A DNA stretch of 64,000 bases from Bacteroidaceae bacterium (GTDB lineage Bacteria; Bacteroidota; Bacteroidia; Bacteroidales; Bacteroidaceae). Both the position numbers and the translations under genes were made by a program. The DNA is taken from the NCBI GenBank assembly GCA_017547385.1, contig JAFYPU010000030.1, positions 1 through 64,000 of the forward strand. Direction: 5' to 3'. The notes beneath the pieces are model-generated. The model did not search any database. It had not been told where the DNA came from and saw only the letters and a program-made list of their open reading frames with translations. Shown here piece after piece: positions 4,431 through 56,777 of this stretch (positions are counted from its first letter, which is position 1; each line of letters starts with the position of its first letter).

Positions 4431-4493
4431 CTGCAGTGCTCGCAGAATTTCCTGCAGTGCTTGCGGAAAATTCTGCAGTGCTTGTAAATTTTT
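4431..4493. repeat. 3 x 21-bp module element, locus A
   Basis: Three direct 21-bp units start at 4431, 4452 and 4473. Each begins CTGCAGTGCT, continues with a CAG/CGG-like part and ends in an A/T tract. It lies between the divergent DUF4250 and ilvE promoters. The same modular element recurs at 13076, 17680, 37597 and 56468. Confidence 0.85.
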
Positions 4494-17679: not shown

Positions 17680-17742
17680 CTGCAGTGCTTGCAGAATTTT
17701 CTGCAAGGCGTTTAGAAAAATCTGCAAGCACTGCAGACTTCA
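17680..17742. repeat. 3 x 21-bp module element, locus C
   Basis: Units start at 17680, 17701 and 17722 with cores GTGCTTG, AAGGCGT and AAGCACT. The outer two units are inverted copies (CTGCAGTGCTTGCAGA against TCTGCAAGCACTGCAG), so the whole could fold into a hairpin with the middle unit as loop. Confidence 0.85.
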
Positions 17743-29107: not shown

Positions 29108-29130
29108 AGATGAAGATTTTTGCTGACGTG

Positions 29131-29400
29131 TCAGAAGTAATTACGAGCCACGCTCTCCATGCGCCCACGGTCGGGCACAAACTCCAAGGTGTCCTCGTCG
29201 ATGCAGCAAAGGTCGCGCAAGGCAAAGACATCCTCGGTCTCGTCGGTGGTGCAAGCACCGGCCGAACAGAACAGCAGATTGCGGGCATCGACAATGCGCA
29301 CAGCCATGCGGCTATAGTCCGCTGCCTCACCGCTCTCCTGCAAGGCGGCACGCACGTATGCCATCAAGGCATCGACAAAGCGGTGTTTCATTTCTTCCAC
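29131..29400 (-). CDS. Small acidic protein of unknown function
   Basis: An 89-aa protein with no signal peptide. It starts with an amphipathic helix (MKHRFVDALMAYVRAAL) and continues with an acidic region containing three cysteines (FCSAGACTT, DLCC). I do not recognise the family. Close spacing to the thioesterase (23 nt) and sensible composition support it as a gene. A zinc or redox role for the cysteines is only a thought. Confidence 0.55.
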   Translation of the reverse strand: MEEMKHRFVDALMAYVRAALQESGEAADYSRMAVRIVDARNLLFCSAGACTTDETEDVFALRDLCCIDEDTLEFVPDRGRMESVARNYF

Positions 29401-29959
29401 GTCGGGTTCCTATTATATATGTCGGGGCGAAGTTACACAAAAGGCTGCGAAAGCCGATGCAGAGCGAGCAAAAAGTTACACTCCGTGCCCTCACTTTGCA
29501 AAATGCATTTTGTCAGCAGAATACACATTTCTTCAACAATTAAGACAGCCAAGACGCATCTGCAAGAGCATTTTGTCAAAACCGGCATCGCCAAGCAATT
29601 TGGTCATGTCGGTAGAAATTCGTATCTTGAAGTGTCAAGAGAGGAACGCCTGCGGTGTTTCTCTTTTTTTGTGCCGCAAAGCCTTCTGCAAGCACTGCGG
29701 AGAGGTTTTTGCAGATGCCTTGCAGATTTTTTTGCAGTGCTTGCTGAAAAATCCACAAGCATTGCCGATTTTTCTTCCCGCTTTCCGGCACTTCGCCGAG
29801 GCAACTGCAAGGCGTGCAGATGGCTCTCGAAGAGTTTTAAGAAAGATTAAGAAAGTAACAAAATGTCAGCCGGCACTTCCACAAACCGTTTCGATAATCA
29901 GGAAAAGCCACACAGAAAAACAAAAATCACACCATAAACCCAAAAAATCGAGCAAAATG
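29401..29959. other. Gene-free gap upstream of the Phe/Tyr operon
   Basis: I see no convincing gene. It contains a degenerate four-unit block of the 21-bp module family (29686-29773), a further single unit near 29805, and ends at the operon promoter. Open frames here cross the repeats and look spurious. Confidence 0.55.
29686..29773. repeat. Degenerate four-unit 21-23-bp module element
   Basis: Units start near 29686, 29709, 29732 and 29753 (spacings 23, 23, 21). Cores AAGCACTGC, ATGCCTTGC, GTGCTTGC and AAGCATTGC are recognisable, each followed by a T- or A-rich tract. One more isolated unit (CTGCAAGGCGTGCAGA) lies at 29805. Confidence 0.7.
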
Positions 29960-29990
29960 TTTGCTAATACATCGAAACGTATTACATTTG
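29960..29990 (+). promoter_or_regulatory. Promoter of the Phe/Tyr operon
   Basis: TTTG (29960-29963), exactly 19 nt, then TACATTTG (29983-29990): a perfect Bacteroidetes -33/-7 pair. Transcription should start near 29997, about 16 nt before the leader peptide start. Confidence 0.85.
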
Positions 29991-30012
29991 CTGCCGAAAC
30001 AAACTCAAAACC

Positions 30013-30108
30013 ATGTCTCACAACGCTGCATGCTTCCGCTATTACTTTAGCTTTTACTTTACGCAAAACGTGAAGCGGGACGGCATGCGCCGAAAGACAG
30101 GAAAATAA
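30013..30108 (+). CDS. Phe/Tyr-rich leader peptide of the aromatic operon
   Basis: A 31-codon reading frame, too short for ordinary gene finding, encodes MSHNAAC, then FRYYFSFYF, then TQNVKRDG and a basic end. Seven of codons 8-16 are Phe or Tyr. It lies between a perfect promoter and a terminator hairpin in front of prephenate dehydratase, exactly as expected for a ribosome-mediated attenuation leader. Stalling on uncharged tRNA-Phe or tRNA-Tyr would control the operon, which makes both amino acids. The architecture parallels E. coli pheL, but the peptide sequence is unrelated. Confidence 0.85.
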   Translation: MSHNAACFRYYFSFYFTQNVKRDGMRRKTGK

Positions 30109-30153
30109 ACCAACACAAATTCATCCCGCTTCGCCCTGAAGCGGGATTTTTTG
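30072..30153 (+). promoter_or_regulatory. Attenuator with competing hairpins
   Basis: The terminator stem pairs 30123-30132 (ATCCCGCTTC) with 30138-30147 (GAAGCGGGAT), loop GCCCT, then six T. A second copy of GAAGCGGGA at 30072-30080, inside the leader peptide frame, can instead pair with 30124-30132 (11 bp counting one wobble and a G-C to 30134). A small CGGC/GCCG hairpin (30081-30092) sits between. Ribosome stalling at codons 8-16 would leave the upstream copy free and allow read-through. Confidence 0.85.
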
Positions 30154-30181
30154 TTAATACCCCTCGGAAGAACCTACCAAC

Positions 30182-31012
30182 ATGAGAAAAATCGCTATAC
30201 AAGGCATCAAAGGCTCGTTTCACGACATTGCCGCCCACCAATACTTTGAGGGCGAAGAGCTCGACATTGTATGTTGTCGCGACTTTGAAGGGCTGTTTCG
30301 CGAAATGAAAAGCGACGACAACGTGCTGGGGCTGATGGCCATCGAGAACACCATAGCCGGCAGCCTTCTCCACAACTACGAATTGCTGCGCGAAAGCGGC
30401 ATGACCATCGTGGGCGAGCACAAACTTCACATCGAGCACAGCCTGATGTGCCTGCCCGAAGACGATTTTGAAAACATCACCGAAGTGAACTCACACCCCG
30501 TGGCCCTGATGCAGTGTCGCGGCTACCTGAGCAGAAATCCGCAAATGAAAGTGGTGGAAGTGGACGACACGGCCGGAGCTGCCGAACAAATCAGTCGCCA
30601 AGGCTTGCGCGGACATGCCGCCATCTGCCACGTGGGCGCAGCCCCACTCTACGGGATGCGTGTCTTGGAACAAGGCATCGAGGACAACAAGCACAATTAC
30701 ACACGCTTCCTCCTGCTGTGCGACCCATGGAACGCCGACCGCCTGCGCGACACCAGACAGACAGACAAAAGCTCCATCGTCTTCACACTGCCCCATGCCG
30801 AAGGCAGCCTGTCGCAAGTGCTGAGCATTTTCAGCTTTTATCGAATCAACCTCTCGAAGATACAATCGCTGCCCATCATCGGACGCGAATGGCAATACCT
30901 CTTCTACGTCGATGTGTGCTATGACGACTATGTGCGCTACCGACAAAGCATCGACGCCGTGCGACCACTGACCAAAGAATTGCATATCCTGGGAGAATAC
31001 AAAGGAAAATAA
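30182..31012 (+). CDS. pheA: Prephenate dehydratase
   Basis: A 276-aa stand-alone prephenate dehydratase giving phenylpyruvate. The catalytic half begins IAIQGIKGSFHDIAA and shows the MAIENTIAGSL segment near residue 55; the TRF-type segment NYTRFLLL lies near 180. The C-terminal ACT-like domain (from about 195; HAEGSLSQVLSIFSFYRINL) normally binds Phe for feedback inhibition. It is the first structural gene after the attenuator; the aminotransferase follows 2 nt downstream. Confidence 0.96.
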   Translation: MRKIAIQGIKGSFHDIAAHQYFEGEELDIVCCRDFEGLFREMKSDDNVLGLMAIENTIAGSLLHNYELLRESGMTIVGEHKLHIEHSLMCLPEDDFENITEVNSHPVALMQCRGYLSRNPQMKVVEVDDTAGAAEQISRQGLRGHAAICHVGAAPLYGMRVLEQGIEDNKHNYTRFLLLCDPWNADRLRDTRQTDKSSIVFTLPHAEGSLSQVLSIFSFYRINLSKIQSLPIIGREWQYLFYVDVCYDDYVRYRQSIDAVRPLTKELHILGEYKGK

Positions 31013-31014
31013 TC

Positions 31015-32184
31015 ATGAACATAAAGCCTGCCGAACGACTTAACAGCGTGAGTGAATACTACTTCTCGCGCAAACTGAAAGAAGTGGCGCGTCTCAACGC
31101 CGAAGGAAAGGACATTGTGAGTCTGGCCATCGGAAGCCCCGACATGCCACCCTCACCCGAGACCATCGAAGTGTTATGCCGAGAAGCCGCACGTCCCGAC
31201 GCACACGGCTATCAGCCCACCGGCGGCATTGCCGAACTGCGCGAAGCCATGGCCGAGCACTACCGGCGATGGTATGGCGTAACACTGAACCCGGCCACCG
31301 AAATCCAACCGCTCATCGGCTCGAAAGAGGGAATTCTGCACACCACGCTGGCACTTGTCAATCCCGGCGAAAAGGTGTTGGTGCCCAATCCGGGATATCC
31401 CACATACACTTCATTGTCGCGCCTGTTGGGCTGCGAAGTGGTGAACTACGACTTGAAAAGCGAAAACGGCTGGCAACCCGATTTTGAAGCCCTCGAATCC
31501 ATGGATCTCACCGGAGTTCGGCTGATGTGGACCAACTATCCCAACATGCCCACGGGAGCACCGGCCATGCGCAGCACTTACGAACGATTGGTTGACTTTG
31601 CCCGAAAGCACAACATTGTGGTGGTGAACGACAACCCCTACTCCCACATCCTGGCCAAAGAACACCTGAGTATTCTGCAAGTGCCCGGAGCACTGGACTG
31701 TTGCATCGAATTCAACTCGATGAGCAAGAGCCACAACATGCCCGGCTGGCGCGTAGGGATGCTCGCCGGCAACGAAACTTTCGTCCGCTGGATTCTCACC
31801 GTAAAAAGCAACATCGACAGCGGCACATTCCGTCCGCTGCAATTGGCAGCTGCACAGGCTTTCCGCAACTCGGACGAATGGCACACCGAAGCCAACATCA
31901 ACGTTTATGCACGCCGCCGACAAACTGCCGAAAGCATTATGCAAACACTGGGATGCAGCTATGACACAGCGCAAGTGGGCATGTTTCTTTGGGGACGCAT
32001 TCCCGAACATTATGCAGATGCCGAACAACTCACTGAGTGCTTGCTGCACGAAGCCCGAGTGTTTATCACACCCGGCTTCATCTTTGGCAGCAACGGCCAA
32101 CGCTACATACGCATTTCGCTCTGCGCCAACGAGAACCGCATGAACGAAGCTCTGCAACGCATCCGCAAGGTGTTCGGAGCGTAA
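31015..32184 (+). CDS. Class I/II PLP aminotransferase of the aromatic operon
   Basis: A 389-aa fold-type I aminotransferase. The PLP lysine lies in FNSMSKSHNMPGWRVG near residue 240, with NPGYPTYTSL near 125 and NDNPYSH near 205. By its place between pheA and the DAHP synthase gene it most likely transaminates phenylpyruvate and hydroxyphenylpyruvate (or prephenate); family similarity alone would also allow aspartate or LL-diaminopimelate aminotransferase. Confidence 0.9.
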   Translation: MNIKPAERLNSVSEYYFSRKLKEVARLNAEGKDIVSLAIGSPDMPPSPETIEVLCREAARPDAHGYQPTGGIAELREAMAEHYRRWYGVTLNPATEIQPLIGSKEGILHTTLALVNPGEKVLVPNPGYPTYTSLSRLLGCEVVNYDLKSENGWQPDFEALESMDLTGVRLMWTNYPNMPTGAPAMRSTYERLVDFARKHNIVVVNDNPYSHILAKEHLSILQVPGALDCCIEFNSMSKSHNMPGWRVGMLAGNETFVRWILTVKSNIDSGTFRPLQLAAAQAFRNSDEWHTEANINVYARRRQTAESIMQTLGCSYDTAQVGMFLWGRIPEHYADAEQLTECLLHEARVFITPGFIFGSNGQRYIRISLCANENRMNEALQRIRKVFGA

Positions 32185-32254: not shown

Positions 32255-33322
32255 ATGGAACTCAATCTTAGCCCTCTTAATCTTCCGGGAATTGAAGATA
32301 AAAGACCTATCGTGATTGCCGGTCCGTGCTCGGCCGAGACAGAAGAACAGGTAATGAACACCGCTACGCAGCTGGCGAAGAAAGGAATTAAAATCTTGCG
32401 TGCCGGCATCTGGAAACCCCGCACCAAACCCGGCGGATTTGAAGGCGTGGGCGAAGTAGGCCTTCCTTGGCTTTCGCGCGTGCAGAAAGAACTCGGTATG
32501 CTTGTTTCCACCGAAGTGGCCACGCCGCGCCACGTTGAAGCATGCATGGAAGCAGGAGTCGACATCCTTTGGGTGGGAGCACGCACGGTGGCCAACCCTT
32601 TTGCCATGCAGGAACTGGCCGACGCCATGAAGGGTTTGGATGTGCCCGTGCTGGTAAAAAATCCTGTCAACCCGGATTTGGAACTCTGGATTGGCGGTCT
32701 GCAACGCATCAACGGAGCCGGAATTACGCGCTTGGGCGTGATACATCGCGGCTTCTCAAGTTACGATAAGCGCCTCTATCGCAACCTGCCGATGTGGCAC
32801 ATCCCCATTGAGCTGCGTCGCAGAATTCCAAATCTGCCCATCTTCGGCGATCCCAGTCATATCGGGGGCGCACGCGAGCTTATCGCTCCGCTTTGTCAAC
32901 AAGCACTTGACCTCGGTTTCGAAGGACTGCTCGTCGAGAGCCACTGCAACCCCGATTGCGCGTGGAGCGATGCCAAACAACAGGTTACACCCGACGTTCT
33001 CGATTTCATCCTCGACAAACTTACGGTGCGCAACACGAGCATCACCACCGAGAGTCTGGAAGCCCTGCGCCGACAAATTGATGAATGCGACAGCGCGCTC
33101 ATCGAACTGCTCTCGAAGCGTATGCGTGTGTGCCGCGAAATCGGACATTACAAGCGCGAGCACAACATGACGGTAGTGCAAACAGGACGCTACACAGAGA
33201 TTCTGGACAAACGAGGAGCGCAAGGTGTGCTCTGCGGAATGGGAACAGACTTCATGAAAACCATCTTTGAAGCCATCCACGAAGAAAGCGTGCGTCAGCA
33301 AATAGACATTCTGAACAAATAA
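32255..33322 (+). CDS. Bifunctional DAHP synthase / chorismate mutase
   Basis: A 355-aa fusion. Residues about 1-260 are a DAHP synthase of the KDSA/AroG-like class: VIAGPCSAETEEQVM near residue 15, RAGIWKPRTKPGGFEG near 50 and FGDPSHIGGARELI near 200. Residues about 265-355 are an AroQ-type chorismate mutase (LEALRRQIDECDSALIELL, then KREHN). The fusion joins the entry step of the shikimate pathway with the branch to prephenate, which suits an operon dedicated to Phe and Tyr; such fusions are usual in Bacteroidetes. Confidence 0.95.
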   Translation: MELNLSPLNLPGIEDKRPIVIAGPCSAETEEQVMNTATQLAKKGIKILRAGIWKPRTKPGGFEGVGEVGLPWLSRVQKELGMLVSTEVATPRHVEACMEAGVDILWVGARTVANPFAMQELADAMKGLDVPVLVKNPVNPDLELWIGGLQRINGAGITRLGVIHRGFSSYDKRLYRNLPMWHIPIELRRRIPNLPIFGDPSHIGGARELIAPLCQQALDLGFEGLLVESHCNPDCAWSDAKQQVTPDVLDFILDKLTVRNTSITTESLEALRRQIDECDSALIELLSKRMRVCREIGHYKREHNMTVVQTGRYTEILDKRGAQGVLCGMGTDFMKTIFEAIHEESVRQQIDILNK

Positions 33323-33336
33323 AAGGCTTTCGAAAA

Positions 33337-34110
33337 GTGAAGATACTCATTCTTGGTGCCGGAAAAATGGGTTCGTTTTTCGTGGACCTGCTCAGCTTCG
33401 AACACGAAACGGCCGTGTATGATGTAGACCCCAAGCGGCTACGTTTCATGTACAACACGCAACGCTTCACATCGCTTGAAGAGATTCGCGACTTTGCTCC
33501 CGAATTGGTCATCAATGCTGTTACGCTGAAGCACACGCTGGATGTATTTCGCCAAGTCATACCCTATCTACCACAGGAATGCATCCTCAGCGATATAGCT
33601 TCGGTGAAGACGGGCATACAAGCTTTCTACGAAACCTGCGGCCGCCGATACGTCAGCACACACCCCATGTTCGGCCCCACCTTTGCCAACCTGGGAGCTT
33701 TGGCCTCGGAGAATGCCATTGTCATCAGTGAGGGCGATTATATGGGTCGCATTTTCTTCAAAGACCTCTACAGTAAATTGGGACTCAACATCTGTGAATA
33801 CACTTTTGACGAGCACGACGAAACTGTGGCCTACTCGCTTAGCATTCCCTTCGTGAGCACTTTTGTTTTTGCTGCGGTAATGAAGCATCAAGATGCGCCA
33901 GGTACAACTTTCAAACGGCACATGGCAATTGCTAAAGGTGTATTGGGAGAAGACGACTGCCTGTTGCGTGAAATCCTCTTCAATCCTCGCACCGGCGGAC
34001 AAGTATCTAAAATTCGCGACGAGCTGAAGGAAATGCTTGAAATCATCGACCGAAAAGACGAAGAAGCACTCAACAATTACTTGAAAAAGATTCGCGAACA
34101 CATCAAATAG
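33337..34110 (+). CDS. tyrA: Prephenate dehydrogenase
   Basis: A 257-aa NAD(P)-dependent prephenate dehydrogenase forming 4-hydroxyphenylpyruvate. It starts with GTG at 33337; the Rossmann loop LILGAGKMGSFF follows at once. STHPMFGPTFANLG near residue 108 is the conserved catalytic histidine segment. No ACT domain is present, so feedback by tyrosine must act elsewhere (for example through attenuation). It is the last gene of the operon, 14 nt after the fusion gene, and ends at a shared terminator. Confidence 0.93.
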   Translation: MKILILGAGKMGSFFVDLLSFEHETAVYDVDPKRLRFMYNTQRFTSLEEIRDFAPELVINAVTLKHTLDVFRQVIPYLPQECILSDIASVKTGIQAFYETCGRRYVSTHPMFGPTFANLGALASENAIVISEGDYMGRIFFKDLYSKLGLNICEYTFDEHDETVAYSLSIPFVSTFVFAAVMKHQDAPGTTFKRHMAIAKGVLGEDDCLLREILFNPRTGGQVSKIRDELKEMLEIIDRKDEEALNNYLKKIREHIK

Positions 34111-37596: not shown

Positions 37597-37659
37597 CTGC
37601 AGTGCTTGCAGAAATTCCTGCGAGCACTGCAGAAAATTCTACAAGCACTGTAAATTTTT
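37597..37659. repeat. 3 x 21-bp module element, locus D
   Basis: Units start at 37597, 37618 and 37639 with cores GTGCTTG, GAGCACT and AAGCACT. It lies in the divergent gap between corA and the lipoprotein pair. Each unit ends in an A/T tract. Confidence 0.85.
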
Positions 37660-56450: not shown

Positions 56451-56777
56451 CCTCAACGCCGCAATATCCGCAGTGCTTGCAGAAAAATCTGCAGTGCTTG
56501 TAGAAATTTCTGCAAGCACTGCAGATTTTTTCAGCTCCCTAGTTCATATCTCTCACCGCTCCGCGGAGCTTCCGTTCCTTGAAGAAGCAGTGCCTCCGGG
56601 CTGTTTGCTGCAATGACCACACAACAGACCAACGATGCACCTCTGACAAAAAAAACACGGCATTAACATCAAGCAAAAGCAAAAAAACACTAAATTTGCC
56701 TGCAACGTGGGAGTGCCATGCCGGCCTAAGCACACCGACACACCACCCACCTTACCTTTCATTCATACCTACCATTT
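56451..56777. other. Gene-free gap between rsmA and cstA
   Basis: No gene is supported. It holds the 3 x 21-bp module element (56468-56530), a CTCCGCGGAG palindrome (about 56561) and a TAAATTTG -7 element (56691-56698) that may serve cstA. Confidence 0.55.
56468..56530. repeat. 3 x 21-bp module element, locus E
   Basis: Units start at 56468, 56489 and 56510 with cores GTGCTTG, GTGCTTG and AAGCACT. The last two are inverted copies forming a 22-bp near-perfect hairpin (about 56486-56529) followed by T residues, so at this locus it may also end rsmA transcription. Confidence 0.85.

Follow-up and report, generated by a model that had tools for sequence, protein, structure and literature searches.

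What controls the aromatic amino acid operon that starts at position 30182 of a 64-kb stretch of DNA (the window) from an Alloprevotella/Prevotellamassilia-like Bacteroidales genome, and what part could the Phe- and Tyr-rich reading frame in front of its first gene play? The searchable literature says little on how gut Bacteroidales control their amino acid synthesis. An earlier note on this region had read it as a leader peptide with a ribosome-mediated attenuator, and this reading is supported at the level of sequence. Taking together the sequence parts, their conservation, the exclusive pairings, covariation, spacing and the match between codons and genes, we regard it as very probable that the element works as a classical attenuator of transcription, ribosome-mediated and with three hairpins. 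The transcription start, leader translation, stalling and read-through are steps that we infer from these data.

Genes and putative regulatory parts of the locus

The operon contains genes for the synthesis of both Phe and Tyr, as the note had claimed:

30182-31012, +: pheA, prephenate dehydratase (PF00800, 179.7 bits; PRK11898 at 2.7e-56, under the NCBIfam cut-off)
31015-32184, +: class I/II aminotransferase (PF00155)
32255-33322, +: DAHP synthase fused to chorismate mutase (PF00793 + PF01817)
33337-34110, +: tyrA, prephenate dehydrogenase with a GTG start (PF02153, 38.3 bits; NCBIfam prephenate dehydrogenase models under cut-off)

The region upstream of pheA holds the following parts, the arms being those of predicted helices:

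29960-29990, +: promoter, exact pattern match to TTTG-N19-TACATTTG (-33 and -7 elements)
30013-30108, +: leader peptide ORF of 31 codons, MSHNAACFRYYFSFYFTQNVKRDGMRRKTGK, from ATG at 30013 to TAA at 30108, with a Phe/Tyr-rich equivalent at 121/129 pheA loci
30028-30039, +: arm 1, outer part, GCATGC..CCGC, overlapping leader codons 6-9 (fold of 29998-30120; own-versus-swapped arms over 103 loci; covariation weaker than in the other stems)
30034-30060, +: control codons FRYYFSFYF, 7 Phe/Tyr in 9, the only run of this density on either strand of the window
30057-30063, +: arm 1, inner part, CTTTACG, formed by the last Phe/Tyr codons and the next codon (pairs with 30069-30075 in the minimum-energy fold)
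30069-30088, +: arm 2, the competing copy of the terminator 3' arm, with GAAGCGGGA at 30072-30080 (folds; complementary arm in 103/114 relatives; 2:3 covariation)
30123-30132, +: arm 3, the terminator 5' arm, common to the antiterminator 2:3 and the terminator 3:4 (folds and covariation)
30138-30152, +: arm 4, the terminator 3' arm plus six T (folds and covariation)

The promoter, the 31-codon frame, the terminator with six T and the second copy of its 3' arm, all named in the earlier note, were each found in place. The pattern TTTG-N19-TACATTTG, which fits the Bacteroidota promoter consensus and would set the transcription start, occurs four times in the window when the spacer is 19-21, the site at 29960-29990 included. 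Among 121 relatives, 56 have TTTG-N17-22-TAnnTTTG within the 160 nt that precede the last Phe/Tyr codon, 58 have TAnnTTTG without the TTTG element, and 7 have neither. Counting both strands, a single in-frame stretch of the 64 kb reaches 7 Phe/Tyr codons in 9. No AGGA-like site lies in the 15 nt before the leader ATG; Shine-Dalgarno sites are mostly missing in the phylum Bacteroidota.

When genome contigs were searched, the closest relatives of this pheA came from a roe-deer colon MAG (95%) and Prevotellamassilia timonensis (79%). Some further observations concern the genome itself. A repeat around GCAAGCACTGC is present in the window at 4433-4485, 13099, 17682-17734, 29688-29744, 37599-37630 and 56470-56522 (17 matches at no more than one mismatch, versus 2.5 expected), often as close inverted or direct pairs; it also occurs at about 1250-1310 of the locus L194, similar copies lie upstream of the genome's own hisG, and it is perhaps an interspersed REP-like element. 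A His attenuator at that hisG was considered and rejected, as inspection by eye of the ~380 nt that separate hisG from the ORF before it showed no His-rich leader. A match to ilvB is present, and trpB has no match in this genome (86.5% complete); 14/14 control genomes match trpB, 13 of them over cut-off, and either Trp auxotrophy or an absent contig is possible.

Predicted alternative folds and proposed mode of action

The fold of the leader RNA (29998-30155) consists of the terminator and a 1:2 hairpin, at -51.2 kcal/mol (z = -5.5, 200 dinucleotide shuffles). The terminator stem spans 30123-30147, with TCCCGCTTC at 30124-30132 and GAAGCGGGA repeated at 30138-30146, and is followed by the T run at 30147-30152, whose first T is able to pair. 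The 1:2 hairpin persists when the terminator is left out of the fold (29998-30120). Its outer helix, seen in the centroid fold, joins GCATGC..CCGC (30028-30039) to GCGG..GCATGC (30075-30088), and its inner helix, seen in the minimum-energy fold, joins CTTTACG (30057-30063) to CGTGAAG (30069-30075). The flanks of arm 2 that pair with arm 1 are thus CGTGAAG at 30069-30075 and GCATGC at 30083-30088, and either helix conceals the competing arm. When arm 1 is omitted (30062-30140 folded), arm 2 pairs with arm 3 at -25.2 kcal/mol (z = -3.3).

The claim that two structures exclude each other therefore holds in the predicted folds, 3:4 forming in the whole leader and 2:3 without arm 1, and both stems covary (see below). 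The wider statement that all parts of a switch are present stood for the parts that the note had named, at their places; the 1:2 hairpin had been missed. This hairpin, built in part by the Phe/Tyr codons themselves, would complete a classical three-hairpin attenuator, a prediction with moderate, family-wide backing. In the window alone, upstream pairing of arm 2 was not significantly raised over codon-shuffled controls (0.87 vs 0.76, p 0.12).

The last Phe codon begins at 30058, 14 nt before GAAGCGGGA (30072), and a ribosome stalled at 30058 should therefore just leave arm 2 unobstructed; 13-16 nt corresponds to about half a ribosome footprint. We propose that transcription would start just past 29990 and that a ribosome would translate the leader behind the moving RNA polymerase. 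If Phe-tRNA or Tyr-tRNA were scarce, the ribosome would stall within 30034-30060 and keep arm 1 unpaired, its leading edge halting just short of arm 2, which could then pair with arm 3. With 2:3 formed, the terminator would be blocked and the operon from pheA through the aminotransferase and DAHP synthase/chorismate mutase to tyrA would be transcribed. If both tRNAs were plentiful, or the leader untranslated, 1:2 and 3:4 would form and transcription would end near 30152. Close to arm 2 the run alternates between Phe and Tyr codons, so that a lack of one amino acid or the other should activate the operon, which would make the leader an OR sensor. The locus accordingly combines an end-product codon run, a terminator before the first gene, an exclusive antiterminator and codons that match the pathway; the window folds add a predicted 1:2 anti-antiterminator, for which family support is moderate and some controls speak against it.

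Conservation across Bacteroidales and the class

The comparison across relatives that the note had proposed was run on 166 gathered pheA loci, of which 132 were distinct (34 duplicates removed) and 129 had at least 250 nt upstream; the other three (L005, L043, L077) were excluded for short upstream sequence. Loci were taken from the best 30 of the matching genomes per search, and 38 order- and class-level loci were added later; about 20 more genus-level and 50 family-level matches without a locus lie outside the counts, barring those found by another search.

At least 7 Phe/Tyr codons in 9 were found upstream of pheA at 121/129 distinct loci, and 119 of the 121 leaders contain both Phe and Tyr within the 12 counted codons. 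A terminator was found by a simple rule at 114/121 leader loci, and the remaining 7 match a covariance model, R1, that we built for the element. A stretch complementary to arm 3 is present, against shuffles, at 103/114 loci with p ≤ 0.05 and at 86 with p ≤ 0.01, and at 83/103 loci 13-16 nt separate the start of arm 2 from that of the last Phe/Tyr codon. Codons, terminator and competing arm were thus all kept.

Eight of the 129 loci lack the run (L015, L017, L020, L026, L030, L067, L068, L073). Three of them still match the covariance model (L020, L015 and L030, the leader of L020 having 6/9 Phe/Tyr), and the other five show nothing. Two genus-level relatives look damaged: L015 has a frame break in the run (1320-1500), and L030 has a shortened run and a U-run that is not clear (2500-2680).

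R1 finds one strong element in the genome of the window (E 2.8e-16) and no second copy there, the seven other matches being weak (E 0.06 to 7.5). Across the order, at a threshold of E ≤ 0.001, it matches 43/149 genomes, with a pheA match in 61/149; matches on the opposite strand we ascribe to the palindromic nature of the terminator. Beyond the order but within the class, pheA is preceded by a run of 6/9 or more in 15/25 loci (L169-L193) and in 5/8 further loci (L279-L286), and some class-level leaders carry Trp. Among plasmid records there was a single match, a distant one to a Phocaeicola record that is unannotated, spanning the terminator and the start of pheA.

Trp codons were also seen near the Phe/Tyr run at L125, L128, L136, L170, L181, L186, L189, L249, L257, L263, L271, L274 and L283. 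Such codons in some leaders would fit shared control of DAHP synthase.

Covariation of the stems

All p-values in this section are optimistic, as related sequences are not independent. Pairing of arms 2 and 3 was scored between a fixed window after the run and the locus's own arm 3 or that of others. At the 29/114 loci whose arm 3 lacks CCCGCT, own arms pair at 20.8 versus 14.2 for swapped arms (permutation p 1e-4). The triplets of arms 2, 3 and 4 change jointly at 100/103 loci, a count to be read with caution because the arms were picked for pairing; the three loci without an anchor were left out of the table.

For the stems themselves we used an alignment, A1, of 58/103 loci (57 distinct), the other 45 being excluded by length, spacing, GC or identity. 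In stem 3:4, 93.5% of cells are paired, 7/11 pairs change on both sides, and there are 58 double-sided cells versus 13.9 in shuffles. In stem 2:3, 92.6% of cells are paired, 5/9 pairs change on both sides, and there are 24 double-sided cells versus 9.1; the number of pair types in this stem (8) was not above shuffles (438/500 as high).

The outer 1:2 helix gave a weaker signal in A1. Paired cells reach 73.7% versus 71.0% in shuffles (4/500 as high) and double-sided cells 22 versus 6.9, while pairs with double changes (reached by 66/500 shuffles) and pair types (260/500) did not go beyond shuffles. Over 103 loci, own outer windows pair at 15.08 versus 12.83 when swapped (p 2e-4). Among four controls, one was raised as well (12.48 vs 11.55, p 2e-4), one slightly so (12.04 vs 11.67, p 0.03) and two were flat, so part of the own-versus-swapped signal may be composition. 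The inner helix (12.08 own vs 11.64 swapped) is uninformative, both of its sides being near-invariant. Across the family, the mean upstream pairing probability of arm 2 is 0.80 versus 0.55 in codon-shuffled sequences, individually significant at 38/103 loci.

Sensor codons and gene content

We called a pheA linked when an aminotransferase, DAHP synthase or tyrA match lay downstream within the ~1.0 to 2.7 kb analysed; at most loci tyrA falls outside this stretch, and distant homologues could escape the call. Among 91 order- and class-level loci (L077, the 92nd, having too short an upstream region), pheA stands alone at 10, with no linked gene in 1.5 to 2.7 kb downstream. Six of these 10 have no leader. 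The other four, from four different families, have leaders with Phe/Tyr counts of 7/0 (L062), 9/0 (L069), 6/0 (L252) and 6/1 (L254, a run of 5/9 accepted by eye). In linked operons, 0/164 leaders are without Tyr and 2/164 have one Tyr (L261, L285); this set mixes thresholds, with 119 leaders at ≥7/9 and 45 at ≥6/9, and leaves out 13/81 linked loci without a run of at least 6/9. Tyr scarcity differs between stand-alone and linked leaders with a Fisher p of 4.7e-7, or 1.5e-5 against 68 order- and class-level leaders, in tests that ignore kinship and use a small stand-alone set, to which cases were added once the first two had drawn attention.

Where pheA is split off in four genomes (G199, G312, G278, G189), the other operon has a mixed leader and similar arms, assigned by eye; it includes a DAHP synthase in all four and an aminotransferase and tyrA as well in three. 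The loci of these split operons, each with its own mixed Phe/Tyr leader, are L235, L236, L237 and L238, only the DAHP synthase/chorismate mutase being detected at L238.

The mixed Phe/Tyr sensor that the note had matched to the structural genes is thus borne out by the relatives, and the Phe-only or nearly Phe-only leaders at stand-alone pheA are the strongest functional hint. That codon identity follows gene content fits amino-acid-specific stalling and would hardly be expected of a U-rich RNA element.

Alternative explanations

The switch could be driven by a metabolite or protein bound to the RNA instead of by leader translation, the Phe/Tyr-rich frame being a by-product of a U-rich element. 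In favour of this, the run ends in nearly invariant codons. Its last codon is Phe in 114/121 leaders, the penultimate Tyr in 107/121 and the antepenultimate Phe in 97/121, and the codon choice is near fixed as TTT TAC TTT (TTT 109 vs TTC 5; TAC 102 vs TAT 5), although the pheA genes of 103 loci favour TTC (806 vs 422 TTT; TAC 597 vs TAT 487). Some constraint there hence acts on the RNA and not on the peptide. Beyond the run, too, the RNA is kept and the peptide varies, GAAGCGGGA-like arms being read as VKRD or CEAGS or sitting after the stop. If ACTTT pairs with AAAGT in the 1:2 hairpin, however, the fixed codons would find an explanation within an attenuator. Earlier in the run, all four Phe/Tyr codons are used and Phe and Tyr are swapped, yet the frame and its start codon are kept, and codon identity tracks gene content. 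At gathering scores, moreover, Rfam matched only two tRNAs in the window, with no leader model, riboswitch or T-box, and nothing in 14 relatives. We consider RNA binding of this kind very improbable.

A strong terminator does stand between promoter and pheA, and it might simply act as a constitutive partial terminator that sets a fixed operon level, leader and alternative pairing being unused for regulation. This would leave without use both the cognate codons and a conserved, covarying antiterminator that is exclusive with the terminator, and we give it only the slightest chance. Hardly credible at all is a chance neighbourhood of a Phe/Tyr-rich frame and the ordinary terminator of an upstream gene. 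Intrinsic terminators are common, and two long ORFs on the + strand (29110-29850 and 29510-30073) lie upstream; apart from a hit at E 0.018 that falls under the Pfam cut-off, neither matches a known family, so that both look spurious, and relatives in the order and the class show the same layout in front of pheA.

Tandem units and a possible evolution of the family

Two leader-plus-terminator units in series precede pheA at L059, L063, L064 and L243, with arms assigned by eye. At the first three loci, unit one has CCCGTC or CCCGTT with ACGGG and unit two has CCCACC with GGTGG; as these arms differ, the two units should not cross-pair. The arms of the second unit at L243 are less clear. Serial arrangements are mentioned elsewhere, with two attenuator units upstream of the Streptococcus pneumoniae aromatic supraoperon (PMC1173090) and a second terminator in tandem at the rimP leader (PMC2965389).

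With the ribosome-mediated attenuator as the preferred reading, we lean towards an ancestral, class-wide Bacteroidia family whose sensor evolves with the operon, being mixed when the genes are linked and Phe-only when they are split, with occasional Trp and some tandem double gates whose arms should not cross-pair.

Comparison with known systems

In B. thetaiotaomicron, the operon pheA > hisHb > aroA-aroQ > tyrA has the same gene order as the one here, and a putative attenuator is given for it in Table 7 of a 2005 paper, drawn from a database of predicted competing structures (PMC1173090). That entry only lists the attenuator; the word "leader" is absent from the main text, and the passages concerned describe neither control codons nor conservation. 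For Flavobacterium psychrophilum, the 2021 text suggests leader-peptide attenuation before amino-acid operons and reports a structured 5' element of pheA, conserved in other Flavobacteriaceae genera and without an Rfam hit (PMC9723704). This element belongs to another order, and the passages concerned do not state pheA among the leader-peptide cases. As described, the uORFC-13-1 motif (24 unique representatives) likewise places a uORF, with at least one Phe codon, beside a terminator before a DAHP synthase gene, but it concerns aroF only (PMC8632094). Small ORFs reminiscent of leader peptides were reported for B. thetaiotaomicron in 2020, with pheA absent from the main text (PMC7366714), and a 2010 survey, which itself adds a case from Firmicutes, states that leader-peptide systems had until then been known only in Proteobacteria and Actinobacteria (PMC2965389). 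Our searches of the open-licence PMC literature turned up no account of the Phe/Tyr leader or its arms, nor of the Phe-only and tandem variants.

The mechanism is a known one, of the trp/his/phe type, and its detailed description for this phylum is apparently new. Sensor codons that follow operon content and the serial duplication are features of specialist interest. The analysis provides a predicted switch with a covariance model and natural variants (Phe-only, mixed and tandem), and it bears on transcription-translation coupling, since such attenuation needs a ribosome close behind RNA polymerase.

Tyr and Phe T-box riboswitches of Firmicutes also respond to aminoacylation and regulate aromatic genes through antitermination, binding tRNA directly without translation. 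The element described here has no T-box match, and translation of its leader is proposed instead. Its closest counterparts in design are E. coli pheL-pheA, trpL and hisL, which likewise combine a leader ORF with cognate codons, 1:2, 2:3 and 3:4 helices and a terminator before biosynthetic genes. E. coli pheL is Phe-rich and without Tyr, whereas the run here mixes Phe and Tyr, stands before one operon for both branches and follows a putative Bacteroidota promoter.
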